From Aurantiochytrium sp. KH105 (taxonomy: Eukaryota > Sar > Bigyra > Thraustochytrida > Thraustochytriidae), in contig BGKB01000200.1 of assembly GCA_003116975.1 (NCBI GenBank), positions 5,858-69,857 on the forward strand: a DNA stretch of 64,000 nucleotides, written 5' to 3'. The notes under the pieces were generated by a model. That model ran no database searches and had not been told where the DNA came from. It saw only the letters and a program-made list of their open reading frames with translations. Shown piece after piece: positions 14,401 through 48,915 of this stretch (position 1 is the first letter of the stretch; each line of letters begins with the position of its first letter). The position numbers were made by a program, and so were the translations under genes.

Positions 14401-14447
14401 ATCCCTCAGCCGCTTCGGACGGCACAAAGCCAAAGCAGCAGCATTCG

Positions 14448-14486
<39 letters not shown>

Positions 14487-29734: not shown

Positions 29735-32700
29735 TTATTTCTTTGAGGTAGACGCACCTTGCGGGAACATGTTGCGAATAGAGAAGTTGTCTCTTTGAAG
29801 TTTGGACTTACGGGCCTGCGAGGGAGATCCCAGACTTCCATGTCGGTTATGAAGCTTTCGCTTGGCTTTGAGCTCGGGACCGAATTGCTCGATCGCCGCG
29901 TTGTGAAACGTGCGCAAGATGTCCACAGTCTGAGAGAAATCGCCGTCGAAAACAAAGACCTCGCCGCTCTCGAGCTCCATCGAAGCGGGTTCTTCCGCCG
30001 GGGTCGTTTCGATGCCAAGCCTGCGCTTGGTTCTGGCGGCTGGTAACTCTTCGATCCGTTTGGGAAGCAGACCATCATTGCGCATCTCCGCTTGTTCCAA
30101 GGCTGTTCGCCCCTTGTAGTTGCGGACCAAAAGGGTCTCTAGCCCGCCTTCGACCTCGACCAAAATGCGAACGGTCGGATAGTGTCCGTGACGCGCAGCG
30201 CAATGCAGCGGAATGTCACCCAGATGATCGCGTGCGCAAATGTTTGCGCCTGCCGCAAGAAGAAGGCGAATAAGATCTCCGCCCCAACCAGCTCGCGTTG
30301 CTTCGTGGAGTGGCGTTGTAAGGGTGCAGCACGAGTCAACTGCCTGCACGAGCGAACTTGACCCCCCCGGGGTAAGTTTCTCGGCGAGCGTGAGTAACGC
30401 TTTGGCTACAGATGAGAATCCAAGCCAACTCGCTTCATGCAACACAGTGCGCCCGAATTCGTCGCGGACGTCAATGAGTCCATCCTCAGTCTCGGGAACC
30501 AGGGGTGCGAGGACTGAGACATCGGCAACGCCAGCGCGCACAGCTTCGAAAATATTTGCGTATTGTCGAGTTGCCTTGTCCTGCGCAAGGGTCGAGCGCC
30601 GAACTTCGCGCTTCTCTTGAGCAATTTTTCGTTCTTTCAAACAATACTGCAACATTGCATCTTGTTCTGCAGCAAGACGCGCTCGCTCCTTGCTTACACT
30701 GTCGTGATACAGTTGTGTCCAGCTTCTGAGATCTGCTGCACGTTGCGCCTTTTCGGCTGCGCGAGCCTTGGCGCGCTCTTGCTGAGCAGCTTGTTTCTCT
30801 TTCAACACGGCTTCAAAGCGTTTCTTCTTGATTGCTTCCTTGGAGTTCGCGTCCATTTCATGCTGCGCTTGCGCCTTCTCCATGACAGTTTTCTTTTGCG
30901 CAAGATGAGCTGCTCGTTCCTTTTCTCGTGTTTCTTTGTGCAAAGCTTGTGCGGAAAGCAAGTGTGCTTTACGAGCTTGAACTCTTGCTTCTCGCTTCTT
31001 CTCTTCCTTTGCTTCAGCTTTGCGAAGCTTTTCGTCTCGCCGCGCTCGCTCGCGAGCACGCGCTTCGCGTCGCTCTTCAGGATTTGCAAGGGCGTTTGGA
31101 TCAATTGTCTCGCTCGCTGTGTCACTTGCTTGCGAATCCTCAGTAGCTGCAGCGGCAAGACTCGCCGCTCCTTCGGCCTCCTTTGCCACTTCATTCACCT
31201 TGGTGTCAAGGGTATCTCCCGACACATCCACTGCGTCGGAGACTGTCTCTGGCTGACGCGCTGTTTCAACGCTTTCTCCATGTTCTGTGCTCTTCGTATT
31301 GTCTTTATCCTTTGACAAAAGTTCTTCTTGCTCAAGAGTGCGAGGGTTCGAGCTTATTCTTCGTGCGGATTCTTGAGGTTGTTGTTGCTCTTCTTGTTCT
31401 TGTTCTTGCTCTTGTTCTTGTTCTTGTTCTTGTTCATGTGATGGTGGCGGTGAGGACTCCTTTTGTTCATGTTCTTGTGCAGGTTCTTGTTCTCTTGGCT
31501 GTTCATCTTGAGGCGCTTGCTGCGAGCTTGTAACCACAGCTTCTGCGGCTTCGACTGCACCAGTATCTGGACGGTTATTGGCGTCATTACTGTTCTTGTC
31601 GTCCACTGCAGCAATTTCAGCATCTGTCACAGCAAGATCTTGATCATATCCTTCCATCCGAGGAGATTTGTCAAGATCCATTCCAGACAGTGCAGAGCCA
31701 GGCTCGCCCTGTGAAAGCGTTAACTGGAGCGGCTCCTCCCAGCTGATTTCGTGCAATCGCTTGTGAAACCAATAATGAGCGTTTGCGTCTTTGTCAAAGA
31801 TTTTCACCCACTGTGGTTCTTTTTCCGGAGGTTCATCTTTGGTGAGCTCGATAGCACGCAGGAGACGGACGTCTGAGCGAGCCTTTTTGGCACGAAAGAG
31901 CCCCTGCATGAGAAGTGCCGCATGCAGCAACTCATCGCTTGCCTCCATGACAAAGTCGGCAGGTTTTTCCCAGACAGTGACTCGCGTATTAACATCGTAG
32001 TAATAGTACGCACCATGCTCCTCATCAAAGACTTCGTACCATCGATGTTTGGCCACGACAGAGGCCTTGGCCTGTTCTGCGCGAACGACGCTCATGCGCG
32101 CATCCATTTCTTTGGTTCGCTTTCGAAGCTTGCCCTGCACAGCAAGTGCCATTCGCCGGCGAATGTGCCGAAGGCGTTCATTTTCTTCCTGATCAGAAGC
32201 GATCAAGGTCTCGTCACCGTCGAAATCCTCAGGCTTGGTCCACGAAACCTCTTCAGTCTCTGCATTGAAAAAATAGACATCTCCGCTGTCGGTATCCACA
32301 GCGGTGTACCACTTTGGCGCCTTGGCGGCTTCGTCGGCACGCTCGCGTTCGCTCTCCGTCATGAGCTCGCGCGGTTTGTCCCAGGTCGTCTCCTGCGTTT
32401 CTCTGTTGAAAAAATACGACTGACCAGATGCTGGGTCATGCAATTCTTGCCAGAGCATCCCGTCGTTTTCGTCAGCCATGACTTTTCCACGTTGAATGCG
32501 GACGTCTTGGCGGGCCCGTTTGGCGCGAAAAGCGCATTGTAGCATGATTGCAGCGCGAAGCTCGGGTGCCATCAACACCTTTGCCTTGGAGAAATCCATG
32601 CGCTCAAAGCCTTTAGGTTCATCCCACTGTGACTCGAGCGTTCGATTGTTGAAAAAGTAGTATCGCTTCGATTGGGGATCAAAAACCTCGACCCATTCAA

Positions 32701-34168
32701 CGCTAGGTGATTCACTGTCTGTCGTATCCACTGCTGGCACTTGAGCATCTCCACTACCGTTGGTGGCTAGAGACCCTGCTTCTGTTTTCGCAATCTTCTC
32801 CCCACATTCGACTTCTTCGGCTGGGGGGTCCCATGTGGTCTCATGCGTTTCGCGATTGTAGTAGTACGGAAGCTCCGTCTTAGGATCGACGAGCTTTTTC
32901 CACACACTGCTCGACTCTTCGCCATCAATTTCGGTGAGATTCTTGCTGGAGCTCACAAGCCCACGCTGTGCTCGCACTGCCTGTCGCGCCTTCTTTGAGC
33001 GAAAAGCGCACTGCATCATCAGCGCGGCACGGAGTTCAGGCGCCATCAAATGCTTGGCCTTGGAGAAATCCAGACGTTGAAAACCTTCAGGCTCTTCCCA
33101 CTGACTCTCAAATGTGTGATTGTTGAAAAAGTAGTACAGTTTCGTTTGCGGGTCGAACACTTGAACCCACTCGGGGATCAGGCGACGAGATGTCTCTGCA
33201 TCGCTGGAGATCAGTTCCGATGCATCTTCGACCACTTCTTCGGGCCCGAGATCTTTCGTCACACTCACGTGTTCTCCACTCGGAGAATTCTCGGCGTCGT
33301 TTGAATCAATGTCAGATTGTACCTCGGCTTTTGCTCCCGAAACGACTTGATCCTTGGCTACCAATTTGTTTTCTCTTTCTTCTTCTTCTGAAATCGGGTC
33401 TGATTTCTTTTGTGTCGAGTTGTCCGCATCGATTTTGTCATAATCAGCAGGTTTTTCCCAGGTGACCTCGTTCGTCTCGCTGTTAAAGTAGTATGGAAAT
33501 CCTGAAGCTGGGTCTAGCATTTCTCGCCAGCCACTAACTTTATCTGTAGAGTTTGCTGCTGTCTTGGCACGCTGAACGCGGACATCACGTCGTGCAAGCT
33601 TGGCACGGAATGCTGACTGTAAGAGCATGGCAGCGCGAACCTCGGGCGCCATTAAAAGCTTTACCTTTGCAAGATCCACTTCCTGGAAGCCTTCGGGTTC
33701 GTCCCATTGGCTTGCTAGCGTGTGATTGTTGACGTAGTAGTAGGCTTTGGAGCTTGGGTCGAAGACTTTCGACCACTCTGGCATGTCTTGCTTGTCTGCA
33801 CTTGGGGCATCGTCGTCAGCTTGATCCTGTGCCGAAGCAAGCGCTTCGTCTCCTTCTTTTACGGGAAAGGCGTCGTCTGCGACTGCCAAGGTTTCTTCTT
33901 TTGTCACAGCAGTATCAGCAGCAGCATTAGCATCAGCATCAGCAGGAGCCACAAGATCTTTGGCAGGATGGTCCCACGATGCTTCCCCGGTGATGATATT
34001 GTAATAGTACAATGTGCCTGATTCATCGAGAGCTTCAACCCAATCCTTCCCAAGAGTATCAATATACCCTTCAGGCGCTTCCCATTGCGTTTCCCCGGTC
34101 TGCGCATTGTAGAAAAACACGTTGTTGCTCTCGTCCACTTGCTTGAGCCAGTCTTTAGTGGAAGCCAT
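29735..34168 (-). CDS. eleven-WW-domain scaffold with IQ motifs, coiled coil and ankyrin repeats
   Basis: This is 1477 residues in one exon. The ATG at 34168 is chosen because the first WW domain starts at once (MASTKDWLKQVDESNNVFFY). Eleven WW-like units, each with two aromatic-flanked strands and a closing W-x-x-P, lie in residues about 4-813 (for example PEWSKVFDPSSKAYYYVNNH, ASQWDEPEGF). Four IQ-like segments (APEVRAAMLLQSAFRAKLAR and relatives) alternate with them, so a WW-IQ-WW block has been duplicated. After an acidic linker comes a Glu-Gln run, then a long Arg/Lys/Glu coiled coil (about 1030-1200). At about 1210-1375 are ankyrin repeats (DEFGRTVLHEASWLGF, TPLHEATRAGWGGDLIRLLL, GDIPLHCAARHGHYPTVRIL). 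WW domains bind Pro-rich peptides and IQ motifs bind calmodulin, so a calcium-responsive scaffold is the likely role. I know no named orthologue. Confidence 0.8.
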   Translation of the reverse strand: MASTKDWLKQVDESNNVFFYNAQTGETQWEAPEGYIDTLGKDWVEALDESGTLYYYNIITGEASWDHPAKDLVAPADADANAAADTAVTKEETLAVADDAFPVKEGDEALASAQDQADDDAPSADKQDMPEWSKVFDPSSKAYYYVNNHTLASQWDEPEGFQEVDLAKVKLLMAPEVRAAMLLQSAFRAKLARRDVRVQRAKTAANSTDKVSGWREMLDPASGFPYYFNSETNEVTWEKPADYDKIDADNSTQKKSDPISEEEERENKLVAKDQVVSGAKAEVQSDIDSNDAENSPSGEHVSVTKDLGPEEVVEDASELISSDAETSRRLIPEWVQVFDPQTKLYYFFNNHTFESQWEEPEGFQRLDFSKAKHLMAPELRAALMMQCAFRSKKARQAVRAQRGLVSSSKNLTEIDGEESSSVWKKLVDPKTELPYYYNRETHETTWDPPAEEVECGEKIAKTEAGSLATNGSGDAQVPAVDTTDSESPSVEWVEVFDPQSKRYYFFNNRTLESQWDEPKGFERMDFSKAKVLMAPELRAAIMLQCAFRAKRARQDVRIQRGKVMADENDGMLWQELHDPASGQSYFFNRETQETTWDKPRELMTESERERADEAAKAPKWYTAVDTDSGDVYFFNAETEEVSWTKPEDFDGDETLIASDQEENERLRHIRRRMALAVQGKLRKRTKEMDARMSVVRAEQAKASVVAKHRWYEVFDEEHGAYYYYDVNTRVTVWEKPADFVMEASDELLHAALLMQGLFRAKKARSDVRLLRAIELTKDEPPEKEPQWVKIFDKDANAHYWFHKRLHEISWEEPLQLTLSQGEPGSALSGMDLDKSPRMEGYDQDLAVTDAEIAAVDDKNSNDANNRPDTGAVEAAEAVVTSSQQAPQDEQPREQEPAQEHEQKESSPPPSHEQEQEQEQEQEQEQEEQQQPQESARRISSNPRTLEQEELLSKDKDNTKSTEHGESVETARQPETVSDAVDVSGDTLDTKVNEVAKEAEGAASLAAAATEDSQASDTASETIDPNALANPEERREARARERARRDEKLRKAEAKEEKKREARVQARKAHLLSAQALHKETREKERAAHLAQKKTVMEKAQAQHEMDANSKEAIKKKRFEAVLKEKQAAQQERAKARAAEKAQRAADLRSWTQLYHDSVSKERARLAAEQDAMLQYCLKERKIAQEKREVRRSTLAQDKATRQYANIFEAVRAGVADVSVLAPLVPETEDGLIDVRDEFGRTVLHEASWLGFSSVAKALLTLAEKLTPGGSSSLVQAVDSCCTLTTPLHEATRAGWGGDLIRLLLAAGANICARDHLGDIPLHCAARHGHYPTVRILVEVEGGLETLLVRNYKGRTALEQAEMRNDGLLPKRIEELPAARTKRRLGIETTPAEEPASMELESGEVFVFDGDFSQTVDILRTFHNAAIEQFGPELKAKRKLHNRHGSLGSPSQARKSKLQRDNFSIRNMFPQGASTSKK
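31388..31436 (-). repeat. Glu-Gln codon repeat in the WW scaffold
   Basis: Repeated GAACAAGAACAAG on the minus strand encodes an alternating EQ run at about residue 910-926. Confidence 0.8.
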
Positions 34169-34625
34169 CGTCCAGAATTCTCGCGGCTCCGCTCGCGCAC
34201 CCAGGCAGAAATTCAACGCAGTATTGCGCTGGAGCAGCTCCTGGTGCTGCCCGCTCAAGTGCGCGGTGGCGCTTGCAAACTCTACGTTTGCAGACGCTCC
34301 ACTTTGCATGGATTGTAAAGACGGTGTGTGCGCGATCGAAAAGGGGGGTCCCCGGGGACCTCCTTTTCTCAACGGATATCTATCTATCTTGACCTTCTTC
34401 TTTCTCTTTTGTATTTTATCACAGAGAAAAAGCCAAAGTCCTATCCATCGATGTGAGCCTCTTGTAAGCGGCAAGGACAATCTTTTCCCATCAAGGTCAC
34501 GCACATCGAGCTCGCGAAAACGAGTGCAAATCAGCTTGCAAGGGTTCGCAGTCTTGGAAAATAAAAATAGAAAGGTCACGCTTTTGTTGACGCGAGCGCG
34601 CACGCACTTGTACCTATCTTCGAAG
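34169..34625. promoter_or_regulatory. bidirectional promoter region, WW scaffold / bL9-EF-hand
   Basis: 457 bases between divergent start codons. It holds the palindrome described separately, close to the middle. Both neighbouring frames run open through it, but no domain is encoded. Confidence 0.5.
34340..34367. promoter_or_regulatory. 28-base palindrome between divergent genes
   Basis: The sequence is centred on CCCC|GGGG and reads AAAGGGGGGTCCCC then GGGGACCTCCTTTT. The arms of 14 bases pair except for two G-T positions. The symmetry and its location between two divergent start codons suggest a dimeric protein binding site or a transcribed hairpin. No factor is known. Confidence 0.6.
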
Positions 34626-35696
34626 ATGCTGCGTGTACGGTTGCTCGAAGACCTCGAGGCAGGACGGAAACGCGGCGATATCGTCGAAGTAGCTGCTGGC
34701 TATGCAAAGTCATACCTCATTCCTCACGGATTTGCTGAAGCGGCTCCCTTGGAGGAAAAGAATGATGTCTGGGATCCCCGGGAGCTCTCCAATGCAGACG
34801 CGCTTGATCGCAACATTGTTCTCGAAGAGTTCCGTCGCCAAATGTACCATGGTGGAGCGCGCACATGGACGATCCGTGGTCTTAATCGCATCTTCGATGC
34901 AGTCACGCGAGACATGCAGGACGATGATGGTGATGCCGCCATGGAACCTTGGCAGTTTCAGGAAGCCATCAACAAGTTTGGCGTCTTTCTCAGTGCAGAC
35001 GCAATGCGAACACTCGAACGTGCGTTCGACACAAATGGAGACGGACGCATCAACCACACCGAGTTTCTCAGTGGCCTTCGAGGACCGATGAATGAGCGGC
35101 GTCATCGAATCTGTGAACGTGCGTGGAAATATCTCATTTCCCGCAAGGAGCCTGGCGTACAAGTTGTACAAAAGAGCGACGCATTTGGATCGCAGGATCA
35201 ACATCCTCTCATTCGCAGCGGCCAGGCCTCGGAGGAGGAGGTCGAAAATATGCAGAACGATGGCCTCGAGCATTGGACTGGTGGCGATGATCTTGTCGAC
35301 GAGCAGGCTTTCATGGCCCATTTTACCGACATGAGTGCAACAATCGATAGCGACGATGTTTTCTGTCAGATGGTAGAGCGCCAGTTCGGTGTGCGTGAGG
35401 CGGATGAAAGCGCCGAAACACAACAAATTGTGCAGTCTTTTAAGGAAACACTTCTCCGCAAGGTGCACGAAAAGGCACGCGAGGGCGTCACCGAGTCGCG
35501 CACTCTTCTCGACGCCTTTCGGCTTGTGAACAGCGACTCATTGGGGAGTGTGACTCTTGGTGAATTTTCAGCTTGTATGGCCAATTTTGGCCTCGGACGC
35601 GACGAGCAGACTGTCATGACTGTTTTCCAGCATTTCGATCAGTCTCAGAACAATCAGATCTCGTACAAGGAATTTGTCGCAGCAATGACAAAATGA
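34626..35696 (+). CDS. fusion of bL9 N-terminal domain with calcyphosin-like EF-hands
   Basis: This is 356 residues in one exon. Residues 1-40 (MLRVRLLEDLEAGRKRGDIV, EVAAGYAKSYLIPHGFAEAA) match the N-terminal domain of ribosomal protein bL9, whose hallmark is 'LLEDv..lGkkGdvVeV..GYarNfLiP.g.A'. Residues about 80-356 are EF-hand protein. DTNGDGRINHTEF (135-147) is a canonical calcium loop, followed by LSGLRGPMNERRH, which resembles the 'LRPPMS..R' stretch of calcyphosin. A degenerate C-terminal pair (VNSDSLGSVTLGEFSACM, FDQSQNNQISYKEFVAAM) lacks several acidic ligands. bL9 occurs in bacterial and organellar ribosomes, while calcyphosin is a cytosolic and ciliary calcium sensor, so the combination is odd. 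No transit peptide follows the chosen ATG, though the frame is open upstream with a basic, Ser-rich stretch. Confidence 0.75.
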   Translation: MLRVRLLEDLEAGRKRGDIVEVAAGYAKSYLIPHGFAEAAPLEEKNDVWDPRELSNADALDRNIVLEEFRRQMYHGGARTWTIRGLNRIFDAVTRDMQDDDGDAAMEPWQFQEAINKFGVFLSADAMRTLERAFDTNGDGRINHTEFLSGLRGPMNERRHRICERAWKYLISRKEPGVQVVQKSDAFGSQDQHPLIRSGQASEEEVENMQNDGLEHWTGGDDLVDEQAFMAHFTDMSATIDSDDVFCQMVERQFGVREADESAETQQIVQSFKETLLRKVHEKAREGVTESRTLLDAFRLVNSDSLGSVTLGEFSACMANFGLGRDEQTVMTVFQHFDQSQNNQISYKEFVAAMTK

Positions 35697-35817
35697 GAAG
35701 GTTATACAGGATAGAGATGCAATCTAAGTTTTCTTACCAATCGCTGGTCGTTTTCCCCTTACTTATAGTCCGTGGTGCCCGTGCTCTCGCAATCTTACTC
35801 GATTCATCTAATTCATC

Positions 35818-38800
35818 TTACAGCTGGTATTGGGCAATCGTGTCTTTGATCCTCTGTGCAAGTTCGGCAATCTCCGCATCAGTAGGTTCAATCTCGCTAT
35901 GCATTGGGACGAACAGCGGTATTCCACACCAACGAAAACGAAATTCGCCATCCCATCTGTCTCTGTCCGCCATATCCTCGTCGATCACGCACGCAATCAC
36001 ACGTACAGGTTTTTGGCGGTCCATCGCGTAGTGAAACTCCATGCAACAATAGTCATTCGTTGATCGCCCCGCATTCACCTTTTCCATGTATTCTCGCGTC
36101 ACAAAGATGACGGTGGTCCGGGACTTGTCGATGCCAAACGCCATGGATCGATAGATCTCTGGCTCAATGTTATTCGCATCAATCCAACACCGAATGCCTA
36201 GCTCCGCCAGCTTTCGCTCAACAGCCTTCACCCTCTCATGCGTGACGTTGTCGGGGCCCCACGCGTGACCGAGAAAAGCATCAAACTGGAAGCCGGCGCT
36301 GCCCGCTGACTCTCCAAGAATTTGAGCCTGAGAGGCCCCATCCACGAACGACGCAAACGCTTCAAGTGGCTGGCATGACGACCGCGTTTGAATTGTGGTG
36401 CCCGCCAGAGGGTGTGCGAGGGATTCCGCAAGAGCACAAGACTTGTCGTTGTCAGTTCCGTCGGAGCTGACATATAACTTTGGTTCTAACTTGCCCCTCA
36501 TGAACGTTTCATCGATTTCCTTCAGCTCTTTGCTCAACAATGCGAGAAGCGATGCGAGCGGGCGATCCCGTCTAGCATTGCTGAAGCGAAAGGTGATGCG
36601 TCGTTGCGATACCTCCATGAGGCACTCCATGCCATTGAAATCAACACTTGCGACGTCCGCGAAAAGCTTCTTTCCCACAGTCGCTACGCCTGGAAATCTC
36701 TGCAAAAGAAGAGCCACGAGACGCTGAAAGAAGCCTTTTGGCAAAATTTCGAAGTCAACGTAGGCAAGAGCAGAGTCACCGACCCATCTTCGTTCATCCT
36801 CCTTGTCGTGCTCCGATGCAGCGTGCAAAAGACTCGGCACCAAAACTGAGTTCTTCTTACCAGCGTCATCGCTGATCCAAGGGCTCGGACATGCCAACAA
36901 TGTCGACTCCATCAATGATACCAAAAAGTCAACAGGGTTGCCTTCCCACAAAAACTCTAGCAAGGCACGACTGGCAACGGCGTGAGATTTCCAGCGACGA
37001 AGTGCAGCATAGAGATGGGGAGGAAGGGCGGCGCGATCTCCGGCTCCCGACCGTAGTCTGTTCATATGCCGTCTCATGTGCTCTGCGCTTGGATCGCAGA
37101 TGACTCGTGACAGGTTTTTCAGTAGCCACTGCGGTTGAATCACAACGACTTTGCACAGAGCCTCATTCTTGGGAAAGTACAAAAGCACGCCAAGCTCATG
37201 CAGATACTCGAGCATCTTCGTGACGTCCTCCTTGGCAACGAAACATTTCGTCACAGCAAGCGCCTCAACATCGTCAAACTGCACGTATGGGTCGCTTTGT
37301 TGGAGCAATCGGTCCAGGCAGTAGGACCAGCGAAGAGGAACCTTCTTGTTCACAAACGCCTTGTCGGCCACGGATCTTGTCAGCTGATCCTTGATACGTG
37401 CAACGTGTCCGTCTACATCCTCGCGATCTTGATTGTTAATAGGGAAGAATTGAAGGAAATTCTCATTCCAGATGTTGCTCTGAATCTCTGGGTCGCCATC
37501 TATTTCGTCAAAAATCCTCTCTTCCAGAGTCTCTTGGATTTCATGGTGCTGATCAAGCTCTGGAACCTGGTCCAGGAATGTCCCGACCAGCGCAACCTCG
37601 ACGCCTGGCGCGTGCAATCGGATAGAGTCGAGCCAGAAACGAAGCGTCTGAATTGCGTCGTCTTGCGAGGCGAGCTTTGCGAACTCTTCCTCGTCGAGCT
37701 TCTTTTGAAAACGCTCCTTACCCAGCACCTCGCGCATGTCAAAAACCACAACATAGACGCCATACTGGGTCAGGAACAGGTGGTGCAGCGCGTAAAAGAC
37801 CTCCTGACCACCGTAGTCCCATATCGTAAAGCTGATCTCTTCTTCCTCCTTTCCGGCGTGCTCCTTGACACGAATGCGAAGCGGGGTGTTCACAGCTTTC
37901 GCAATTACCTCCTCGTCAAACTGGACTGATGGAGACTGCGGCGGAGTTTGACGCACAGCGGAAGCACGACTGTCTGAAACGGCAAGTGGAGCAGCGCGTG
38001 GCGCCTTGGAAACGCTTCGCGCTGCGTCTTTCAACGACTGAGCCTCAGACTGATCCAGGTCGTCATGCTTCGCTATGTTCTGATACTTGTACTTTACAAG
38101 TTGTTCGCCGAGATCGGCATCGCCAATGTTTTCCCGCTCCTTCCAGTCTCGTGTGTGCATGAGCATCAGATCTATTCCAATCGTTGAGACATGCTCGGGT
38201 ACGAATGGCTGGTTCAGGAGCGTGCGGATCGTCGACGTCTTGCCTGCGGCTGCCTTACCCACGACCATTAGCTTGGCACGCCCCCAGCGTACTTTTTTAT
38301 CTGTTCTGAGCGCCTCAGCCGCTGCTTCGCTCAGCTCGTTCAGCTCATCCTTGACAAGCTTGAGGCGAGAGCCAATACGAGCAAAAATGCCCGAAGAGAC
38401 TTGGTCAAGACTGTTGATCAATTACATGAGTCTTCGATGTCCTCGAAACGAAAGATGCGGTACGAACTTACGCTAGCTCCTGCAAGATGTCGTTGCTCTC
38501 GAGCGCTACGGCAAGAGCTTCAGCGCCTTCATTCCCAATTCTACATCCAGTGAGACTGTTTTCACGTGAAATAGTCAGCAATTGCATGCTACAATGACTC
38601 TGAGTCTGATGTGTTGCTGGCAAACGTACTCGAGGGACTGAAGAGATGACTTGTTCTGCTCAAGCGCCTTTGCCAGCTTTTCGGCGCCTTCATCGTCAAC
38701 AATGTTATCTTCAAGGCTGAGAAAGATGAAAGATGACATGCCGATCATCGCGTGATGATGCGCACGTTTGTTAGAGATTTCAATTTGTCTTCGATCGTTC

Positions 38801-41800
38801 TTGTGTCATGGTGTTAACGTACTCAAGCTCCTCGAGTGTACTGTTTTCTACGAGCGCACCAGCCATGGCTTCAGCGCCATGTGGACCGATAAGGTTCTCA
38901 GAGAGACTGCAGTCATTTGTAAAGAACCAGGTTGGCAAAAACACAGAAAATTGAACGTTTTGAAGGTTCATCTTCGTAAGTTCCTATTTGCCCCTAATAC
39001 AAGCGCCTTTCCGAATCCAACGTACTTTAACGACTGCAGAGAATTGTTTGTTGCGAGCGCTTTCGCAATCTCATTCGCGCCGTCGTCCCCAATCGCATTG
39101 TTTTGAAGACTGGACGCGATAAGCGGTTTGTGAAGTTGTTACAAAAAAAGATAAGCAAGTGCTGGTCAGTTTTACACAGTGCCGACACCCTGGACCCGCC
39201 ATGCCAACGTACTGTAGCGTCACGAGGGACTTGATCTGAGCGAGTGCCCCTGCCAGCAGAGAAGCGCCATCATTTCTGATGTTGTTGTGAGATACACTGT
39301 GAATTGCGACACCAAGCGCGGGTCGGGAAGAAATAGTTTATGAACATGCTCGTCAGCTAAGCACATCTTGATCCTTTTGCCATCATCATAAATACTTACT
39401 CCAGAAAGTGTAGCGTTGTGTTCTCCGTGAGAGCGCTCGCAAGATATCTTGCGCCAGCCATACCGACTCTGTTCTTTGCAAGACTATCAAGATGAGGAGT
39501 GTTTTGATCGACATAAAAAGCCCGCGGAATTCCACACCAGATCATATCACGACGAATAATCATTTTTCGACGAGTATCGAGTGATCGTCAGTCATACTCG
39601 CTTCTTGAGTACCGCCATGTTTGTATAATAGAACTTACTCTAGCGCCTGTAATGATTCGCTCTTGGCAAGCGCATTTGCTAGCTGTTCAGCGCCATCCTC
39701 CGTGATGTCGTTGCTACGAAATCTGCGTGATTTTGCGTGATACGGATTCATGAACACGCGAGGAAAAGCCACATGGAGTCGTGAATACATCTTCGTTAGT
39801 CCATGCTTCTCCTTCCTCGCGCAATGCTCACTCGCCAATACTTACTTCAGTGTGTGCAGCGACTTGTTCTTCAGTAGTGCGCCCGCCACAGCCACAGCGC
39901 CTACGTTGCCAATCTTGTTCCTTGTAATACTGCGCACCACATCAAGATTTTGCATTTGGTTTGGAAATTGTGAGACTCCTTGCATTCAATGTGCCCCAAA
40001 TTGTCTTGGTATCACTTACTCTAGGAACAACAGCGACTTGTTCTCCTCCAGTGCGCTGGCCACATGCACAGCGCCATCATCGCCAATGGAATTCCATCCC
40101 AGACTGGGCTTGCCAAATAAAAGAAAACACCACCAACGTGCGCATATTTGGAAGTCGTTTTGCCATACATACTTGTCAGCCTTCTTCGAATCATACACGC
40201 CTCATTCTCGATGATGTGGTTCTTACTTGAGCAACTCCAGCACTTTCGAGTTCACGAATGCTTCCGCTATCTCCTTGGCGCCATAAGCGCTGATCCTGTT
40301 CTTCTGAAGGCTGCGCTTGGCCATGGAGAGAGGTCAAATAACAATAGCACCGCGAGGAAAAAGCATTGTTGTATATGTGTCCAATAGTGAGTCTCATTGC
40401 TCAACTACAACGATCTGTTTCTACTTACTCGAGAGAACACAGCGTTGTGTTCGCGGCAAGCGATCTGGCCATTGCCGCGGCGCCACCGTCACCGATACGG
40501 TTCCAGCCAAGACTGCATTTACGTGACGACGAGCAGCAAGTTGCCAAATACAGTGCCATTAATTGCTTCGTCGTCAGTCATCGGGATTTCGCGCACTTTC
40601 TCGCTTCTCATGATCACCTACTTGAGCGTCAATAGGGACTCATTTTTCTCGAGCATATCCGCTACAGCCTTGGCGCCAATGTGACCTATCTCGTCAGCCC
40701 CAAGACTGCGCTCATTTAATCAATTGCAGTTTTATGCAAGTACGAAACACCACAGAAATTCATGTCAGTCTTTCTTTGTCTTTTGCAAAACGCTTTTTAC
40801 CGTTCTCACCACATACTTCAAGTTCTGCAGCGACTTGTGCTCGGCAAGCGCGCATGCCACGGCCTCAGTACCACTATCGCCGATGCCATTCTTGGAAAGA
40901 CTGAGAGGGTGATTATAAAGTAGATAAGTGACCACGTTTCATTGCGTAAGTTGGTTTGTTCATGCAACAAAAAATCTATCTTCGTGATTCTCCGTTATTT
41001 TCCTCGAAACTTACTTCAGAGAATGGAGCTGTGGGTAATTAGCCAGGCTCTCCGCTATTTTTTTGGCGCCTTGTGGGCCGATGCCATCACCAGATCGACT
41101 ACACTCATCGAAATAAAACATAAGGGAAGCAAGCACCAATGTCGACAGTGGTGCGTAAGTAAAAGTTTGCAGCATGTTAGTTCACTTCGACCGTACTTAA
41201 GCGAAAATTTCAACGCAACGTACTCCAATTCTTTCGCAGCCTCAAATTCATCTTGCTTCTGGGCTGCAATCGTTGCGCGCTCTTCGGGTCCCAATCCTGA
41301 GCCCGCCTGGGCTCTTACGCCCGCTTGGCCTTCGGAGCTCCTGTGAGCATCTGAGTCTGCTTGCGCAATGAAGTCATCGTCGCGCAAGCGGTGATACATG
41401 GAATTCCTCCTGTAGTATTCGCAAACGTTGATGAAAAGTTAAATATAATCCCAATTGCTCATCGTTAATAATTCTGACTTCTCCTCCAATTGAAACTACA
41501 CATACCTGTTTTTCCTTATCAGTGCGTATATTTTGTGCAACCAGTGTCTGCTGATATTGTTTTCACGAAGGCTGCTCTCGTTTAAAAAATTGGTGCAAAC
41601 GTGCACATAAATGACGAACAGGGAGGTGGCCACAAAAAATTGTTCGCCTTTAATTTAGTTCTCCTCGCTTCCCAAATGCGGTTTTTCTTCCTCACTCCCA
41701 ACTTACTCAAGCGTCTGCAGCGAGGTGTTCTCCTTGAGCGCATTTGTTAATGCTACTGCGCCAGCATCGCCAACTTGGTTGCCCCAAAGACTGCGATTGT

Positions 41801-43067
41801 GCATTTTAATGGCAAATTGAAAACGTAAGAGCATGCATGGTCGCATGATCGAAGAAAGAGACGAACAATCATAGCATCACGTATTGGGTTGGATGATTTG
41901 TACCATTGCAAGTTGGTCAGTCTTTTTCGTTCATTGCAAGCTTTCTTTGCTTTCTTTGCTTTTCCCGCGTGCAACTTACTAAAGCCGCCGCAGCGACTTG
42001 TTCTCCTTTAGCGCATTCGCCAGTGCTGTCGCGCCATCGTCGCCAATTTGGTTCCACCGAAGGCTGCGATTGTGCATTGTATGGGCAAATTGAAAACGCA
42101 AAAGCATGCATGGCAGCATGATCGAAGAAAGAGACGTACAATCATAGCATCACGTATCGAGGTTGGATGATTTGTAGCATCGCGAGCTGGTCAGTCGTCT
42201 TCGTTCATTGCAAGCTTTCTTTGCTTTTCCCGCGTGCAACTTACTATAGCGACTGCAGCGACTTGTTCTCCTTTAGCGCATTCGCCAGCGCTGTCGCGCC
42301 ATCATGGCCAATTTGGTTGCTGTCGAGACTGCGTTGATTTTCAAATTTTTGACGAAGTGAAAACGTAAAAGCATGCATGGCAGCATGATCGAAGAAAGAG
42401 ACGAACAATCATAGCATCACGTATCGAGGTTGGGTGATTTGTAGCATCGCGAGCTGGTCAGTCGTCTTCGTTCATTGCAAGCTTTCTTTGCTTTTCCCGT
42501 GTGCAACTTACTATAGCCACTGCAGCGACGTGTTCTCCTTTAGCGCAATCGCTAGCGCTGACGCGCCATCAACGCCAATTTCGTTGCTAAAAAGACTGTG
42601 TTGATTTTCATATTCATTTTTGTGAAAACGTAAAAGCATGCATGGCAGCATGATCATAGAAGGAGAAGATTAATCATTGCATCATGAACCGAGTTGGATG
42701 ATTTGTAACAATGCGAGCTGGTCAGTCATCTTCATTCTTGAAGAGCTTTCTTTGCCTCTCTTCAAGCTACTTACTAAAGCCTTTGCAAAGCTGTGTTTCC
42801 CTTGAGCGCATTTGCCAGCGCTGTCGCACCACCACGGTCAATTCTCTTATTCAAAAGACTACGATTGAACATTTCACAAAAAACAATGCGATCGGAAGAG
42901 CGATATTGGAAAAACATGACAGTGTTTGAGTCAGAATATACCACAAAGCATTGCAACGAGGCCCATTGGCAATTTGGAGTTGCTCGTTTTACTTACCGTA
43001 GGTAGGTCTCACCTTGTGACATTTGTCGGATTGCATCGGCAATCACGTCTTCATTGGAGGTAGACAT
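35818..43067 (-). CDS. LRR-linker-LRR-Roc-COR-TIR protein (ROCO family), 23 exons
   Basis: The model has 23 exons and 1504 residues. Minus-strand exons are 43067-42997; five 84-base LRR exons (ending 42775, 42512, 42245, 41980, 41707); 41571-41506 (LRR cap); 41409-41224 (62-residue linker). Fourteen LRR exons follow, ending 41015, 40817, 40622, 40429, 40227, 40020, 39846, 39639, 39400, 39213, 39026, 38823, 38630 (87 bases) and 38472, then the last exon 38410-35818. Every intron is phase 2 with GT(A/G)xGT donors and AG acceptors, and the total is divisible by three. LRRs are the 28-residue ribonuclease-inhibitor type (LGWNSIGDDGAVHVASALEE). The last exon has Roc P-loop GKAAAGKT (about 692-699), DYGGQE and GTFLD, then COR. 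The TIR-like domain (about 1348-1504) starts FDAFLGHAWG and has a Glu in CCMEF (about 1432) where NAD-cleaving TIRs carry theirs. The likely role is a GTP-switched sensor. Confidence 0.82.
41707..42858. repeat. tandem exon-plus-intron duplications within the LRR gene
   Basis: Five consecutive LRR exons recur with spacing of 273, 265, 267 and 263 bases. Introns share long near-identical stretches: AAGCATGCATGGCAGCATGA, CAATCATAGCATCACGTAT, GAGCTGGTCAGTCGTCTTCG and TTCATTGCAAGCTTTCTTTG recur. The copies around 42064-42244 and 42329-42511 differ at only a handful of positions over about 140 bases, so these units duplicated recently, introns included. Confidence 0.88.
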
Positions 43068-43975
43068 TTCGACCAAAAACGTATGAGACCTTGCCTTACG
43101 CGTATCAACGATCTTGTTTCTCTGCAGCGATTAGTGAATAGAAAAGGCAAGCAAGCTTTTGGCGTGTAACTCGCGGGCTCTGCAAGCTCGCAAGTATGCA
43201 GACTTTCGAGTTCGAGCACGTGTGCTTGGCTTCCCTGCAAAAGTAAACTTGATGCAGCTCACGTGTGTTGGCCCTGAGTCCGTGGCTGCAGCGCTGCAAG
43301 CGAGTGAGCGCCGGACGACCGTCCGCCCGGCAGGCTCTCCGGTAAGCCTTCGGCGGTCTCTCGTGCGCACGAGGGCCGCTCGATAATCGCGGACGCTGCA
43401 GGTTTGGACTCTTCTATCTTGTTCATCTTGCCCCGCCCAAAGTAAGTCCGAAGGAAGAAGCCAAAAGTAAGCTCGATTTCCCGAAGCAGATGGGAATGAG
43501 CAGTCTGCATCCTTTGGAGACAAGACCAACGAGAGACAAGCAAGGTCACCGCTAACCGCTCAGCCCTTTTCGAAGCGATCAGACAGACACTGCGCGTGCT
43601 GCCACAGAAGTGCTGTCTGACTGACCCGCCCATGATCTTCAGAGAGAGCACGTTCCGAGAGCGAGCGGTCTTCGTTCGCAAATCATCAATGGCATGGCAT
43701 GCATTTGGATGAATAAACTTGCGGGCAATCTTCGTGTCGCTTCTGGCTGGTGGCTGCTTTTCGGGCAAAGGTTCATGTGCTCTGGAAATGCACGTGAATG
43801 ATCCTCCTGGCGGAGCCCGGCAGAGCCGCAAGTCGCAGCCTCAGATGAATCCCGGACATCCTTGAAATCGCACGCGTCGTCATTCCTCGCGCATTCTCTC
43901 TCATCCAGAACCTCTTGAGCGGTGGTGCGTCAGGGAGCGCGCGGCAGGGCCGAGTAAGGGAAGGGAAGGATCAGG
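43068..43975. other. intergenic region between divergent LRR-Roc-COR-TIR and FSH-GTPase genes
   Basis: 908 bases with promoters of both genes. On the minus strand an acceptor-like CGCTGCAG at 43125-43132 opens a frame that runs into the ATG at 43067, so a 5' leader exon is possible. The 190-codon ORF at 43831-43259 (minus) has no domain and cannot be joined in frame to the LRR gene through its GTGAGC donor. Confidence 0.45.
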
Positions 43976-46798
43976 ATGGCGGCGGCGGGCGAGGGACTGC
44001 TGCGCGTGCTGTGTCTGCACGGGAGCAGCCAGACGAAGGAGATTCTGCGCGCGCGGCTCGGATGGCTCCCGAAAAAGGTGCGCAAGACGGCGGATCTGGT
44101 GTTTGTGGACGCGCCGCACGAGCTGCCGCTGCGCGAGGGCGACAGCGTCCCGACGCGTACGTGGTGGCGGCACCAGGCCGATGAGGAAGAGAAGACGCGC
44201 ACACTGCAGGAGTCTTTTTTCATGCTTGAAAAGGTTTGGAAAGAACAGGGTCCTTTCGATGGCATTATTGGCTTTTCCATGGGCGGCGCCGCCGCGGCGC
44301 GCATTGCCGCTAATCCCTCAAGATTTCCTGTAAGTAGATTTGTACCTCGCTGCGGAGAAACGATTGACTGACAAAGACGCCAATAACAGGGTTTGGAGTT
44401 TGTGATTCTGGGTGGCGCGCCATGCATGACGAGCATGGCATCCTTTTGGCAGGATGTCGAGCTTGCGGAAATGTCAATCCCTAGTTTGCACATTATGGGA
44501 CGTACAGATCGCGTTGTAGACCTTAGTTCGAGCAAGGAGCTTGCTGCCCGGTTTGTAAACGCCCAAATTTATGAGCACGATCAGGGCCACCTTATTCCGT
44601 CAAACGCACCGGCACGGAATCTCATCGTAGACTTTCTCAATGCGCAGCACGAGCGTATCATGGCCTCTTCGGCCCCGTTGGCTACTTCTACTCCCCCCCC
44701 TCCTCCTTCTCCACCATCGCCGAGCAAGGCAGCCGAGAAGCAGCAGCAAGCCTCGAAATCCAACGAGCCACCACCTCCGCCCACGTGCACATCAGATGAA
44801 GGTGCGGCGGAGCAGCGAGACGAGGTCGAGGCTCTCGAGTCCATCTATCCTGACACGATGAAAATCACCCGGCCGGCTGCGAGCGGCGCCGGAGCTCCTT
44901 GCGGTGCTCTAGCGTTCCGACTGGCATGCGAGGACTCCCCCCTTCACCAGAAACTCGAGCTCGTCGTAGATTATCCAGCCAACTACCCGGAGGAGGTACC
45001 TCGGGTACACATTGAACATTCGCTCGGAATGCTGCAATTCCCGCAGCGTGTCGAGACGGCGTTGCTGCAGCATGTGCGCGCCGAGCTCGATGAGCAGGCA
45101 GGCATGCCCTGTGTGTACACTGCAATTTCGGCTGCGGAAACGTGGCTTGAAGATCCGCAAAACATTGCTCTGCTTGACAAGGCGCGCGGTGAGTCAGATG
45201 CCAAGGCAAAAGCAGCTGCAGCCGCCAAGAGTGGCAAAGAGGATGAAGATGCAGCCGAGGACGAGGAAGAGGATGACATGCTGCCTGGCACGCGAAAAAT
45301 CTGGGAGGAAGAGCCCGAGGAGAGCGTTGAGAACGAGCTCGTAGAAAAGGCCACTAAAGAGGCATGCATTGAGGTCGCGCGACGGCAAAAGAATCCTGTA
45401 GAGGACGCTGGTCACGTGGCCAAGGGTCGAGGTGTGAGAAAGTTTGTCGTGGGACTTGTAGGCAAGCCCTCGGCAGGCAAATCTACCTTGTTCTGTTGTA
45501 CAACACGCCTGCAAACTCTCGCCAAGGTAGCGGCGCACCCTTTTACGACAATTGAGCCCAACTATGGTGTCGGATGGTGGGCCTCAAACGATGTGACTGA
45601 TCAGGCGACGGATCCGAGCGATGCTGCCTTCGAGACCGAGCATGGCCGCGACGGCCAAGGACGACGTCTGCTTCCGCTCCTCATCAAGGATGTCGCGGGG
45701 CTTATTCCTGGCGCATACAAGGGTCAAGGCAAGGGTAACAAGTTTCTTAATGACTTGTGCGACGCCGACGTTCTCATTCACGTTGTGGATGTATCTGGAT
45801 CCAGCGACCGCAATGGTGTGGCTGTGATGGATGATGTTCAATCTGCGTCAACTGCAGAGGAGGATATCAAGTGGGTGCGCGAGGAGCTGCATCGTTGGAT
45901 TTTTGGCAATGTCGTCGCCAAGTGGCGAGGCGTGGTGCGCGCGGCTCGCGCTCGTAACTCGGAACATGCGGCAGAAGACCGTCTGGTAGCCTTGCTCACG
46001 GGCTATCAAGGGCCGACGCGAAGCATTGTCACGGCTGCAGCGGCACGGAGCAAGCTCGATCCAATGATTGCGGAGCGCTGGAGTCGTGCTGATCTACACC
46101 GTTTCATTGCGCACTTTTTGAGCGTGCGCTTTCCCATGTGCTTGGCGCTCAACAAGTGCGACCGTCTCATTCTGAACCCCAAATTCGGTCAAGAGGTGGG
46201 CCTCGAAAAGCTGGAGCAAGCCAAGAAAGTTGCTCTCGAGCAGGGATACGTTGCCGTGCCTTGCTCTGCGATGCTCGAGACAAATTTGTTGTCGTTAGCG
46301 GGCGAGGGCAAGATCGAGTATGCCTTCGGCTCGAGCGCTTTTGCCGCTCCTGGGTACTTGCAAGAGAGCGTTTCCTCGTCAACGACAGACAGCAATGAAG
46401 CCAAGTTACGCAAGGAACTCCAAGCAGCTCGCAAGGTGATGGATTTATTTGGGTCGACAGGCGTTGTGGACTGCATCAGCTCTGCGGTCGCGCTCCGAGA
46501 ACCTACGCTGGTGTATCCTGTGACCGATCTCAAGTCTGGCAAGCGTCGCGAGTGTCTTCAGTCGCTCCCGGGTTCCACAGTAGACGACATCTTTTCTGCA
46601 CTTAAACACGGCGTCGTGGACAGTTTCCGACTCGAGGGTGACTTTATTCGCGCCGAAGGGACCACGCGCACTCCTGATGGCGCAACTCGTCTTGTTGGCA
46701 AGAATGCCGTTATGGACTCTTCGATTCAAGTCTTGCGGATTCTCACGAATCGCAAGGTTGCATGGCAGCATACAATCAAGCCCAAGTCTGGGCAATAA
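43976..46798 (+). CDS. fusion: FSH-type serine hydrolase, RWD domain and Obg/YchF-related GTPase
   Basis: Two exons, 43976-44329 and 44390-46798 (phase-0 intron, GTAAGT to AACAG), giving 920 residues. Residues 8-215 are an FSH1/DUF341 alpha/beta hydrolase: LRVLCLHGSSQTKEIL, nucleophile elbow GFSMGG with Ser101, the acidic residue in MGRTDRVVD and the His in HDQGHLIP, so the triad looks complete. After a Pro/Ser linker, residues about 270-390 form an RWD domain (DEVEALESIYPDTM, VDYPANYPEEVPRVHI). An acidic stretch follows. The GTPase then starts at RKFVVGLVGKPSAGKSTLF (P-loop G476-T), with AAHPFTTIEPNYGVGW, KDVAGLIPGAYKGQGKGNKF, and ALNKCDRL as G4. It ends in a TGS-like region (VAWQHTIKPKSGQ). 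The GTPase half resembles the fungal Ygr210 branch of the Obg/YchF family, implying a ribosome-linked role. The hydrolase substrate is unknown. Confidence 0.82.
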
Positions 46799-46940
46799 GA
46801 GCGTTGTGTCAAGGGTATCTTATATCGTTTCGTGCGGCTCTCGTGTGGCTTTGCATGCTTTTGCTTTTTTGTGCGCTTGCTGCTGATTTCGATAGATTGC
46901 TCGTTCTACGGGTGTTCTTAACAATGTTTTAGCTTGGCGT

Positions 46941-47141
46941 TCAAGAGTGGCGGTGGTCGTTTTCCTCCTGAAGATACTTTTGCAAGAGGTCAGCCTCGAT
47001 TCTTTTTCGTGCACGTCGCATGGCAGGTTCGAGCAAAACGTCCTTGAGTTCCCACTGCCAAAGTCGGGCTTCGCGAACGCGTTGCTCTGCTCTCTGCAGA
47101 GCAGCTTTCTCGCTCTCGGACGCTGCCGGTCGAGTGTCCAT
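46941..47141 (-). CDS. small charged helical protein, unknown
   Basis: This is a 66-residue ORF from the ATG at 47141 (MDTRPAASESEKAALQRAEQ). It is almost entirely predicted helix with a striking WQWELKDVLLEPAMRRARKR middle and an acidic-basic C-terminus. I recognise no family. It is supported as a gene by its compact clean start and by its head-to-head position with IMP4 (273 bases between start codons). It is also convergent with the FSH-GTPase gene 142 bases away. A longer ORF in the same frame reaches 47627 but would overlap the IMP4 coding sequence. Confidence 0.45.
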   Translation of the reverse strand: MDTRPAASESEKAALQRAEQRVREARLWQWELKDVLLEPAMRRARKRIEADLLQKYLQEENDHRHS

Positions 47142-47414
47142 CGCTGCCCCAGAATATTGACAAGTTGATGATGTGCTGGGACGGCGATTCCCCTTACTGT
47201 CATCGCCCGTTATGTATACAGTTACGTAAAAAGCGGTTACAAACCCAGGAAAGGTTTTGGGTGTCTGGACGGGGACCCCAAATTGCCGTCTCTTGAGTGG
47301 ACGTCGAGGCGACAGAACTCGAAGAAGAAGAGCGAGTGGCCCTCGGCTCAGAGCGCGCGCCGCGGAGGAGGACCTGGCCAAAGGGGGCGCGACAGAGAGC
47401 AGAGCGTAGCAAAG

Positions 47415-48302
47415 ATGTCGCTGCGCAAGCACATTCGTATGCGGAAGGAGTACATCTACCGCAAGTCGCTCGAGGGAAAGGACAAGGAGCAGTACGAGAA
47501 GAAGCGCCAGATTCGGGAGGCCCTTGCAGCTGGCAAGCCGATCCCCACGGAGCTGCGCGACGAGCAAGGCAAGCTTCGCCAGGAACTCGACAGAGATGAC
47601 GAATTCACCATCAAACCCAAGACGCACATGGATGACGAGTACGCGAACGCGGGCGTTCGAGACCCGAAAATCTGTGTGACTACCTCGTCAGACCCGAGCT
47701 CTCGCCTCAAACAGTTTGCCAAGGAGGTGCGTTTGATGTTTCCCAACTCGCAGCGCATCAATCGTGGTAATGTCAAGCTTGCAGAACTTGTAGATACATG
47801 CCGGTCCAACGACTTTACAGACATTGTCATTGTTCAGGAGCACCGCGGTGAGCCCGACGCCCTCGTTGTCTGCCATCTGCCGTATGGGCCGACCGCGACC
47901 TTTTCTCTTACCAACGCAGTCATGCGGCACGACATTGAGGATTGCGGCACCATGTCCGAGGCGTACCCGCACCTGATTTTTGACAACTTCAACACAGCAC
48001 TCGGGGAGCGTGTGTCAAACATTCTCAAGTACCTTTTCCCTGTACCCAAACCAGAGTCAACGCGCGTGCTTACATTTTCAAACAATCGCGACTTTATCTC
48101 CTTTCGCCATCACACATTTAAGAAACTCGGCGGCGAATCGAACACGGTAGACAAGGAGCATGTCGAGCTCAGCGAGGTTGGCCCGCGCTTTGAGATGCAG
48201 CTGTTTCAAATCAAGCTGGGTACTGTTGACGATCGTAATGCTGAGATGGAGTGGGTTCGCCATACGTACACCAACACGGCCAAAAAGCGGCGATTGCTGT
48301 GA
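47415..48302 (+). CDS. IMP4: U3 small nucleolar ribonucleoprotein IMP4 (Brix domain)
   Basis: This is 295 residues in one exon; human IMP4 has 291. The ATG at 47415 gives MSLRKHIRMRKEYIYRKSLE, close to the conserved IMP4 start; the frame is open upstream to 47283 but lacks homology. The Brix domain spans about residues 80-270: KICVTTSSDPSSRLKQFAKE, LMFPNSQRINRGNVKLAELV, VVCHLPYGPTATFSLTNAVM, PHLIFDNFNTALGERVSNIL, and RVLTFSNNRDFISFRHHTFK. It ends with the typical WVRHTYTNTAKKRRLL. IMP4 binds the U3 snoRNA-pre-rRNA duplex in the SSU processome in the nucleolus, with MPP10 and IMP3. Identification is firm. Confidence 0.97.
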   Translation: MSLRKHIRMRKEYIYRKSLEGKDKEQYEKKRQIREALAAGKPIPTELRDEQGKLRQELDRDDEFTIKPKTHMDDEYANAGVRDPKICVTTSSDPSSRLKQFAKEVRLMFPNSQRINRGNVKLAELVDTCRSNDFTDIVIVQEHRGEPDALVVCHLPYGPTATFSLTNAVMRHDIEDCGTMSEAYPHLIFDNFNTALGERVSNILKYLFPVPKPESTRVLTFSNNRDFISFRHHTFKKLGGESNTVDKEHVELSEVGPRFEMQLFQIKLGTVDDRNAEMEWVRHTYTNTAKKRRLL

Positions 48303-48915
48303 CTTTGCTGTAAACACTAAATTGCTCTCGTTTCGTCTCTTGCTTCGTACAATTTCCACTTGCATCGACCAACGTGGAAGACTCGTGCTCGCGCGTGTGC
48401 GAAAGAGTTCGCAAGCGTGCCTAGAGTTGCCAACACGGCAGGATATGTTTTTTTTTCTTCTAAAAGCGCGCTTTGACAGAACGATGACGATCACACCTTG
48501 TCCCCGTCAGTCAGTCAGTCAGTCAGTCAGTCAGTCAGTCAAAAGCCCGCTTGCTCTATGCCTTCCTATTCTTTTCTCTATGAAATAAAAGCCCCAAGCT
48601 GGTACATCAATACGCGTGGTGATCAAACAAAGCATCAAAGTCGTTGGTCCTTCGGCTGTAGATGAATTGCAATTTGAGCCAGGTTGAGCACGAAATTGTT
48701 GCTTTGGGGGTTGAAAGAAGGCGAGAAATAAGAAACCGTGTGTAGGCCTGCCTTTTCCAAATGATGTCAGAATTTTCGTCTCAATGGCTCATGGACTTGA
48801 CCATGCCAGGTTAAAAAAACAGCTTCGTACAGTAAAAGATGAAGGTAGATAGATAAGTGAAAGAAATTAGGTGGGGGAGAAAGACTCTCACGATGGGGGT
48901 TGCCTCTCACGCCAC
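48303..48915. other. intergenic region between convergent IMP4 and nitronate monooxygenase genes
   Basis: 613 bases of 3' flank for both genes. It includes a TCAG microsatellite and an AATAAA at 48584-48589 that could be a polyadenylation signal. No gene is seen. Confidence 0.5.
48507..48540. repeat. TCAG tetranucleotide microsatellite
   Basis: Eight and a half uninterrupted TCAG units downstream of IMP4. Confidence 0.95.

Follow-up and report, generated by a model that had tools for sequence, protein, structure and literature searches.

We analyzed a 64,000-nucleotide stretch of contig BGKB01000200.1 from Aurantiochytrium sp. KH105 (positions 5,858 to 69,857; hereafter, the window), a member of the thraustochytrids, which are cultured for oils. 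On its minus strand, the window carries a gene in which five leucine-rich repeats (LRRs), a cap, a linker, and 14 further LRRs precede a Roc-COR-TIR region. This gene probably encodes an intracellular ROCO receptor resembling the nucleotide-binding LRR (NLR) proteins, with the surface of its N-terminal LRR array diversified by turnover of exon units in the germline. A first-pass annotation of the window had proposed a recognition surface that varies by unequal recombination, and this proposal gained support: the number of repeat units differs among copies of the gene and between alleles, and the variation lies on the concave face of the repeats.

The spliced model, read from the sequence, runs from 43067 to 35818 and comprises 23 exons encoding 1504 residues. 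This was also the model of the first-pass annotation, and it stood up to inspection, since all 22 introns are in phase 2 with a GT donor and an AG acceptor at each. All 21 internal exons are divisible by three and lie between phase-2 introns, so that, as had been claimed, any of them could be removed without loss of frame. They include the 19 symmetric exons that each encode a single LRR (84 nt in 18 of them and 87 nt in the other), the cap exon of 66 nt (69 nt if an acceptor three bases upstream were used), and the linker exon of 186 nt. An exon-pattern scan, which is restricted to 81- to 87-nt exons scoring above a threshold and misses atypical units, gave 19 matches in the gene region on the sense strand. 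On their antisense strands, five such loci together yielded a single match, and elsewhere in the window (53.5 kb) the two strands yielded zero and one. We consider the exon anatomy confirmed at the level of sequence, with the splice joins being predicted ones. One feature had, however, been overlooked: the array is bipartite, with the first five repeats forming a variable part and the other fourteen fixed in five close copies.

These close copies are the window gene itself (A1, on contig C200), A2 (C97), B1 (C265), C1 (C254), and C2 (C20). In each of the five, the array adjoining Roc (the C-array) has 14 units, and its exons pair one to one at 79–99% DNA identity (14 of 14 per copy). Exon 1 of A1 matched A2 at 91% over 70 nt, B1 at 95% over 63 nt, and C1 partially at 82% over 33 nt; the C2 locus sequence begins just ahead of its first LRR exon, and its exon 1 presumably lies just upstream of the sampled locus. 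The cap exon had DNA matches in A2 and B1 (94%) and in C2 (74%) and none at the threshold used in C1, and its frame is open in all five copies. The linker exon matched over its full length in A2 (90%) and B1 (84%), and in C1 and C2 the match was limited to its 3' third. Its open frame is 186 nt in A1, A2, and B1, and C1 and C2 allow other lengths.

The cap and linker exons bear on the possibility that the locus comprises two genes or products, one made of the five LRRs and the cap and the other a Roc-COR-TIR protein beginning at the linker. The cap does look like the end of an LRR domain, a stop codon is reached past the cap donor after three codons in A1, A2, B1, and C2 and after seven in C1, and the linkers of A1 and B1 contain an in-frame ATG. 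However, a stop shortly past a donor is common in introns, the A2 linker has no ATG near its start, and in each of the five copies both cap and linker are open, in phase, and flanked by GT/AG sites. We regard separate products as improbable.

In the N-terminal array (N-array), we scored 5 units in A1, 5 in A2, at least 11 in B1, 9 in C1, and 16 in C2. The B1 count is a minimum because a run of 937 N lies inside its array, and the C1 count may be 10 because an extra exon-like unit, which contains a short internal repeat, was seen by eye in the gap that follows LRR 1. Including the intron, the units repeat with a period of about 264 bp. The nearest-matching intron was found in the same gene for 25 of 39 units, in only 11 of these in the neighboring unit, and some introns are 99.4% identical although their exons differ. 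C254 and C20 are taken to be alleles because they are 96% identical about 7.6 kb downstream at a nearly equal offset and 88% identical just upstream, which makes the 9 and 16 scored units of C1 and C2 a difference between alleles. A reversed order of units between these two alleles was considered and not accepted, as their introns pair differently; by residues, the unit at C1 position 2 resembles C2 unit 11, and that at C1 position 7 resembles C2 unit 10. Elsewhere, C5/C21, C13/C197, C138/C69, and C98/C89 are likely allele pairs with equal unit counts within each, and stray matches only suggest allelism between C16 (12 units) and C41 (15 units). The flanks of B1 and C123 are 96% alike, and C123, near its contig end, matches the C-terminal part only.

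To describe selection on the repeats, we defined exon-peptide columns 1, 2, 4, and 25 as concave columns; these are the variable columns and are expected on the concave face. A structure model of a relative from Hondaea fermentalgiana (P0001), whose mean predicted local distance difference test (pLDDT) score was 44.8, was used for LRR strand positions only and, mapped by hand, placed the strand on columns 25 and 26, the split codon, and column 0. By counting over 46 units, the ratio of replacement to silent differences per site (pN/pS) in the N-array was 1.61 in the concave columns versus 0.38 in the other columns. The concave ratio was 1.69 in 15 pairs whose introns are 93% alike and 1.86 in 80 pairs whose introns are 88% alike. 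In 25 within-gene unit pairs chosen for introns at least 90% alike, codon positions 1 and 2 differed by 0.390 in the concave columns and 0.057 elsewhere, fourfold sites by 0.138, and introns by 0.064; that is, concave change in these recent pairs amounted to 2.8 times the fourfold rate and 6.1 times the intron rate. Among all 17550 possible four-column sets, the set {1, 2, 4, 25} ranked 2, 1, 36, 2, 309, 467, 115, and 81 in eight groups, with the leading ranks of 2 and 1 belonging to the two largest groups. In 18 of 20 genes, concave change was greater than fourfold change. Bootstrapping over units gave a concave-to-fourfold ratio of 1.96–2.65 for the A–C arrays and 1.58–2.25 for the next largest group.

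Contig C97 is the allelic partner of the window contig, with 97% identity over 6 kb. In 500-bp bins, A1 and A2 were 0.826–0.928 identical across 36201–43700, a stretch that includes roughly 0.6 kb of sequence ahead of the start codon, and 0.949–0.988 identical across 43701–51200, with 0.917 in the final bin at 51201. The window alleles diverge over the gene and not in the sampled 5' flank, and the protein of the adjacent gene is 98.4% identical over 801 residues between them, versus 88.8% for Roc-COR-TIR. Allelic divergence above that of the sampled 5' flank and alleles of differing unit number would suit balancing selection, as expected if these proteins served self/non-self or mate recognition and not defense, with TIR activation blocking fusion or killing the cell. 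The variable LRR surface would then distinguish kin from non-kin cells in the manner of fungal incompatibility NLRs, and the WD40-bearing sister family described below recalls the WD40 incompatibility proteins of fungi. However, pathogen recognition fits the same pattern equally. The present evidence fits defense or allorecognition alike, and we consider a role confined to self/non-self recognition rather unlikely, although it is the alternative to which we give the most weight.

The last exon contains the Roc, COR, and TIR domains. Pfam profiles matched Roc (4.1e-17, 63 bits; cut-off 27), COR-A directly after Roc (4.5e-14, 53 bits; cut-off 35.3), and TIR_2 after COR (6.8e-10, 39.9 bits; cut-off 28). 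All three matches exceed the curated cut-offs and, together with the exon model, bear out the order LRR-linker-LRR-Roc-COR-TIR put forward in the first-pass annotation; Roc followed by COR identifies the product as a ROCO GTPase. Neither NB-ARC nor NACHT was among the 10 Pfam families matching this exon at E <= 1. Residues G55, G60, K61, T62, D202, G205, and Q206 of the last-exon frame, which are the P-loop, switch, and DxxGQ positions of Roc, are invariant in 22 aligned sequences. The candidate catalytic glutamate that had been pointed out near residue 1432 is residue 795 of the last-exon frame, or by arithmetic residue 1432 of the model, and it is indeed conserved: all 8 aligned TIR domains have it, as do at least 90% of the 22 aligned relatives. 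A Foldseek search of PDB with a weak structure model of the TIR domain (mean pLDDT 62) placed TIR or SEFIR proteins at ranks 1–7 (Cat1, SPARTA, SARM1, and RPS4/RRS1). Non-TIR flavodoxin-like folds were mixed in from rank 8 onward, and none of the 1341 matches had E <= 0.001.

Several results weigh against a receptor under diversifying selection. In the four pairs whose introns are at least 97% alike, concave pN/pS was just 0.97. Concave change was not above fourfold change in L030 and L032, and in several older arrays its excess was small, with both rates near saturation. The pN/pS estimates were obtained by counting, from values of pN and pS near saturation and from units that recombine. In most comparisons, fourfold sites outpaced the adjoining introns, by about twofold in several, which is the opposite of the expectation for neutral introns; one possibility is that gene conversion homogenized the introns. 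The 3' flank of the window alleles is represented by a single bin (35701–36200, 0.977), and this bin contains the end of the gene. As for the TIR domain, a sequence search against PDB found no TIR, and the domain carries a tyrosine at the tryptophan position of the WCxxE motif. The PDB sequence search gave only two matches (E 0.75 and 0.94), which were both to ribosomal protein uS9m and were dismissed as chance.

Alternatively, the gene could encode an ordinary ROCO signaling protein that does not act as a receptor and whose repeat array is relaxed and prone to recombination. LRR arrays change in number readily, unit turnover is mechanically expected here because within-gene introns are up to 0.994 identical, and the concave ratio of the four most recent pairs also points in this direction. 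However, relaxation predicts concave change at the neutral rate, which the excess over both fourfold sites and introns in the 25 recent pairs and the bootstrap ratio for the A–C arrays speak against. Nor is the adjoining C-array relaxed: in its concave columns, dN/dS was 0.16–0.31 in four comparisons among loci A–C, although the counts were small (5–12 replacement changes per comparison). For Roc-COR-TIR, dN/dS was 0.25–0.33 in three A–C comparisons and 0.23–0.56 in five others. Because both the C-array and Roc-COR-TIR are conserved, diversification in loci A–C is confined to the movable array. We find a merely relaxed array hard to believe and retain the diversified receptor as our preferred interpretation.

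We further examined the distribution of the gene family in the genome (367 contigs, 76 Mb), where family counts are lower bounds and many Roc matches come as equal-scoring pairs, as in a diploid assembly. The Roc-COR-TIR exon had four close matches (82–91% identity, near full length) and 16 further near-full-length matches (49–52% identity), counted as places with alleles included. LRR exon arrays of 4 to 30 scored units were identified at 19 loci (L017–L035) among the 20 stretches examined, and the remaining fragment, L036 on C123, had no scored LRR unit. A DNA search with two units recovered the A, B, and C arrays together with weaker single-exon matches. Because the latter occurred on 26 other contigs and often in series, LRR exon arrays extend beyond loci A–C; three of these contigs, C13, C197, and C138, hold known family members. 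Pfam detected Roc, COR-A, and TIR_2 in all five members run (C98, C16, C5, C265, and C254). For the pairing of Roc with TIR, 79 distinct Roc places, mainly long frames, were picked from at least 150, with the other 71, mostly short frames, omitted, and all of the at least 150 TIR matches listed were used. Of the 79, 66 had a TIR match 0.8–3 kb downstream on the same strand. Among the matches listed, a downstream TIR was present for 21 of 23 members taken from the search with the Roc-COR-TIR exon, the exceptions being C265, whose TIR was found by Pfam, and C97, which aligns over the entire TIR.

A larger Roc family carries WD40 repeats. In the one member sampled for domains (L044, C119:68400-69799), WD40 repeats stand ahead of Roc in one open frame, and the Roc and TIR matches at this place fall in a frame of equal length. 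Genome matches to L044 reached the last or next-to-last query residue, from WD40 into Roc, in 54 of 93 cases, a number that includes a few matches confined to the later part of the query and some containing stop codons. Many places of this family have a TIR match downstream. Because of the C119 frame and the L044 matches, there seem to be two kinds of sensor on one Roc-COR-TIR chassis. We tentatively extend the receptor interpretation to a two-armed repertoire, in which LRR sensors and a larger WD40 arm may share this chassis in a GTPase-based immune or allorecognition system that replaces the ATPase of signal transduction ATPases with numerous domains (STAND), in parallel to the ROCO proteins of brown algae and possibly widened by exon skipping. 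The LRR arm would then combine unit turnover between alleles with diversifying selection on the concave face.

Ten proteins of Hondaea fermentalgiana, a thraustochytrid stramenopile (P0001–P0010), were compared with the paralogs found here. Two were 99.2% and 98.6% identical to them, seven 90.1–93.7%, and one 47.6%. These values point to H. fermentalgiana or a closely related thraustochytrid as the source; the lower identities may come from receptor divergence or from species difference. Database models of the family bear automatic names, for example 'Leucine-rich repeat serine/threonine-protein kinase 2' and 'NACHT, LRR and PYD domains-containing protein 1'. By eye, model P0002 omits exons that are present in the 99%-identical C6 locus, and skipping any of the 21 internal exons would keep the frame, so that recognition might instead be diversified mainly by alternative splicing of the symmetric LRR exons. 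P0002 is, however, probably an automatic prediction, and genomic turnover of units already accounts for the diversity seen. We judge splicing unlikely to be the main source.

Under the interpretation that we favor, the gene would be transcribed and spliced into one protein in which the N-terminal LRR array acts as the recognition surface. Exon and intron units of about 264 bp would be gained, lost, and rearranged by recombination in the germline, and selection would favor replacement at concave-face residues. The second array of 14 repeats and the Roc-COR GTPase would form a conserved regulatory body. From what is known of these domains, ligand binding may alter the GTP state of Roc-COR, and this switch may cause the C-terminal TIR domains to gather. 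The gathered TIR domains could then cleave NAD+ or produce a nucleotide signal, leading to defense or cell death.

Table 1. Features of the window gene, in window coordinates
Feature	Position	Strand	Basis
Exon 1, with start codon, 71 nt, ending in phase 2	42997..43067	-	Splice model
LRR exon 1, variable N-terminal array, 84 nt	42775..42858	-	Splice model, exon scan
LRR exon 2, variable array, 84 nt	42512..42595	-	Splice model, exon scan
LRR exon 3, variable array, 84 nt	42245..42328	-	Splice model, exon scan
LRR exon 4, variable array, 84 nt	41980..42063	-	Splice model, exon scan
LRR exon 5, variable array, 84 nt	41707..41790	-	Splice model, exon scan
Cap-like exon at the end of the first LRR array, 66 nt	41506..41571	-	Splice model, close copies
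Linker exon, 186 nt	41224..41409	-	Splice model, close copies
Fixed array, introns included, with 14 LRR exons (84 nt in 13 of them)	38472..41098	-	Splice model, exon scan
Single 87-nt LRR exon, inside the fixed array	38630-38716	-	
Last exon, 2593 nt, with Roc, COR, TIR, and stop codon	35818..38410	-	Pfam
TIR-like domain with conserved glutamate (frame residue 795)	35818..36300	-	Pfam, alignment, weak model

Several other open frames in the window were noted. At 8838-11081 on the minus strand, a 747-residue frame from this protist has a strong match to a C-terminal novel E3 ligase (NEL) domain (Pfam PF14496, 4.4e-27), a domain best known from bacterial effectors. A 1622-residue frame at 29735-34603 (minus strand) combines ankyrin repeats and IQ motifs with ten scored WW stretches, and a frame at 34122-35696 (plus strand) has EF hands after a ribosomal L9 N-terminal-like domain. 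At 44393-46798 (plus strand), one frame takes in the end of an FSH1 hydrolase as well as an RWD domain and an Obg-like GTPase; it is either a fusion or a read-through of neighbors. An unbroken 3976-residue frame at 11835-23765 (plus strand) contains FAT, FRB, PI3/4-kinase, and FATC domains and resembles a TOR kinase.

Among known systems, plant TIR-NLR resistance proteins likewise combine an LRR sensor, a nucleotide switch, and a TIR domain in one chain. Their domain order is reversed, whereas the TIR of the window gene is at the C-terminus, and its Roc-COR-TIR exon has no match to a STAND-type NB-ARC or NACHT ATPase. A close parallel is found in the LRR-ROCO genes of brown algae, which were reportedly first described by Zambounis in 2012.

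The first-pass annotation regarded the combination found here as undescribed, which was overstated: brown-algal ROCO genes with one LRR per exon, a ROCO-TIR protein of Chondrus with tetratricopeptide repeats (TPR), and the LRR exons of Tetrahymena are all published (PMC11378527, PMC6564038). In brown-algal ROCO genes of groups 1 and 2, each LRR is a 72-bp phase-2 exon (Teng 2024, PMC11378527), and the LRR-ROCO genes show exon shuffling and splice variants along with positive selection at four sites of the concave face (PMC11378527). Groups 1 and 2 are LRR-ROC-COR, group 3 adds a C-terminal peptidase, and group 4 has another LRR class and DUF900, with no shuffling in groups 3 and 4; the same paper nevertheless terms LRR-ROC-COR the sole brown-algal structure, and reports a conserved COR in 18 of 111 genes (PMC11378527). 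The window gene shares with the brown-algal LRR-ROCO genes N-terminal LRRs with Roc-COR, one LRR per phase-2 exon (19 of 19 LRR exons here), and concave-face diversification, which was found here by counting and in the N-array only. The exons and repeats differ in length, with 72-bp exons and 23-residue LRRs in brown algae and 84-nt exons and 28-residue LRRs in the window gene. Furthermore, the window gene has a TIR after COR and a fixed second array behind a linker; the available part of PMC11378527 names no such TIR, and mentions no such array, for brown algae.

Other systems share single features. The TPR-ROCO-TIR protein named for Chondrus crispus has repeats, ROCO, and TIR in the same order as the window gene, but its repeats are TPR and not LRR, and an exon-per-repeat structure is not stated in the available text (PMC11378527). 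Tetrahymena has nearly 50,000 LRR exons of 90 bp in phase 2, in arrays expanded by recombination (PMC6564038); it shares tandem LRR exons of equal length and phase-2 introns with the window gene, whereas its exons are 90 bp and the available part of that paper ties them to no ROCO domains. As in the window gene, Roc-COR and TIR occur in one chain in Trichoplax, where a figure legend lists TIR among the domains of Roc-COR proteins (PMC4104024), and in database proteins P0018 and P0022. The available part of PMC7159879 makes no mention of ROCO-TIR. Judging by titles and the beginnings of abstracts, no paper on this family was among the matches listed for searches on ROCO, TIR, or immune receptors in thraustochytrids, Hondaea, or labyrinthulomycetes, or for a search on exon-per-repeat LRR genes.

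What is new in the window gene and its relatives is the 84-nt repeat length, the combination of a fixed and a movable array, the attached TIR, and a large expansion in another lineage. This expansion contrasts with the at most four ROCO copies reported for each of the other examined species of the stramenopile-alveolate-rhizarian (SAR) group, including Schizochytrium aggregatum, in the available part of PMC11378527. If our interpretation is correct, exon-modular LRR diversification of a GTPase receptor would occur in two stramenopile groups, with exons of 72 and 84 nt, which would suggest either convergence or an old stramenopile device. To the brown-algal report, the thraustochytrid case adds an attached effector, the TIR domain, and with it a putative enzymatic output that can be tested.

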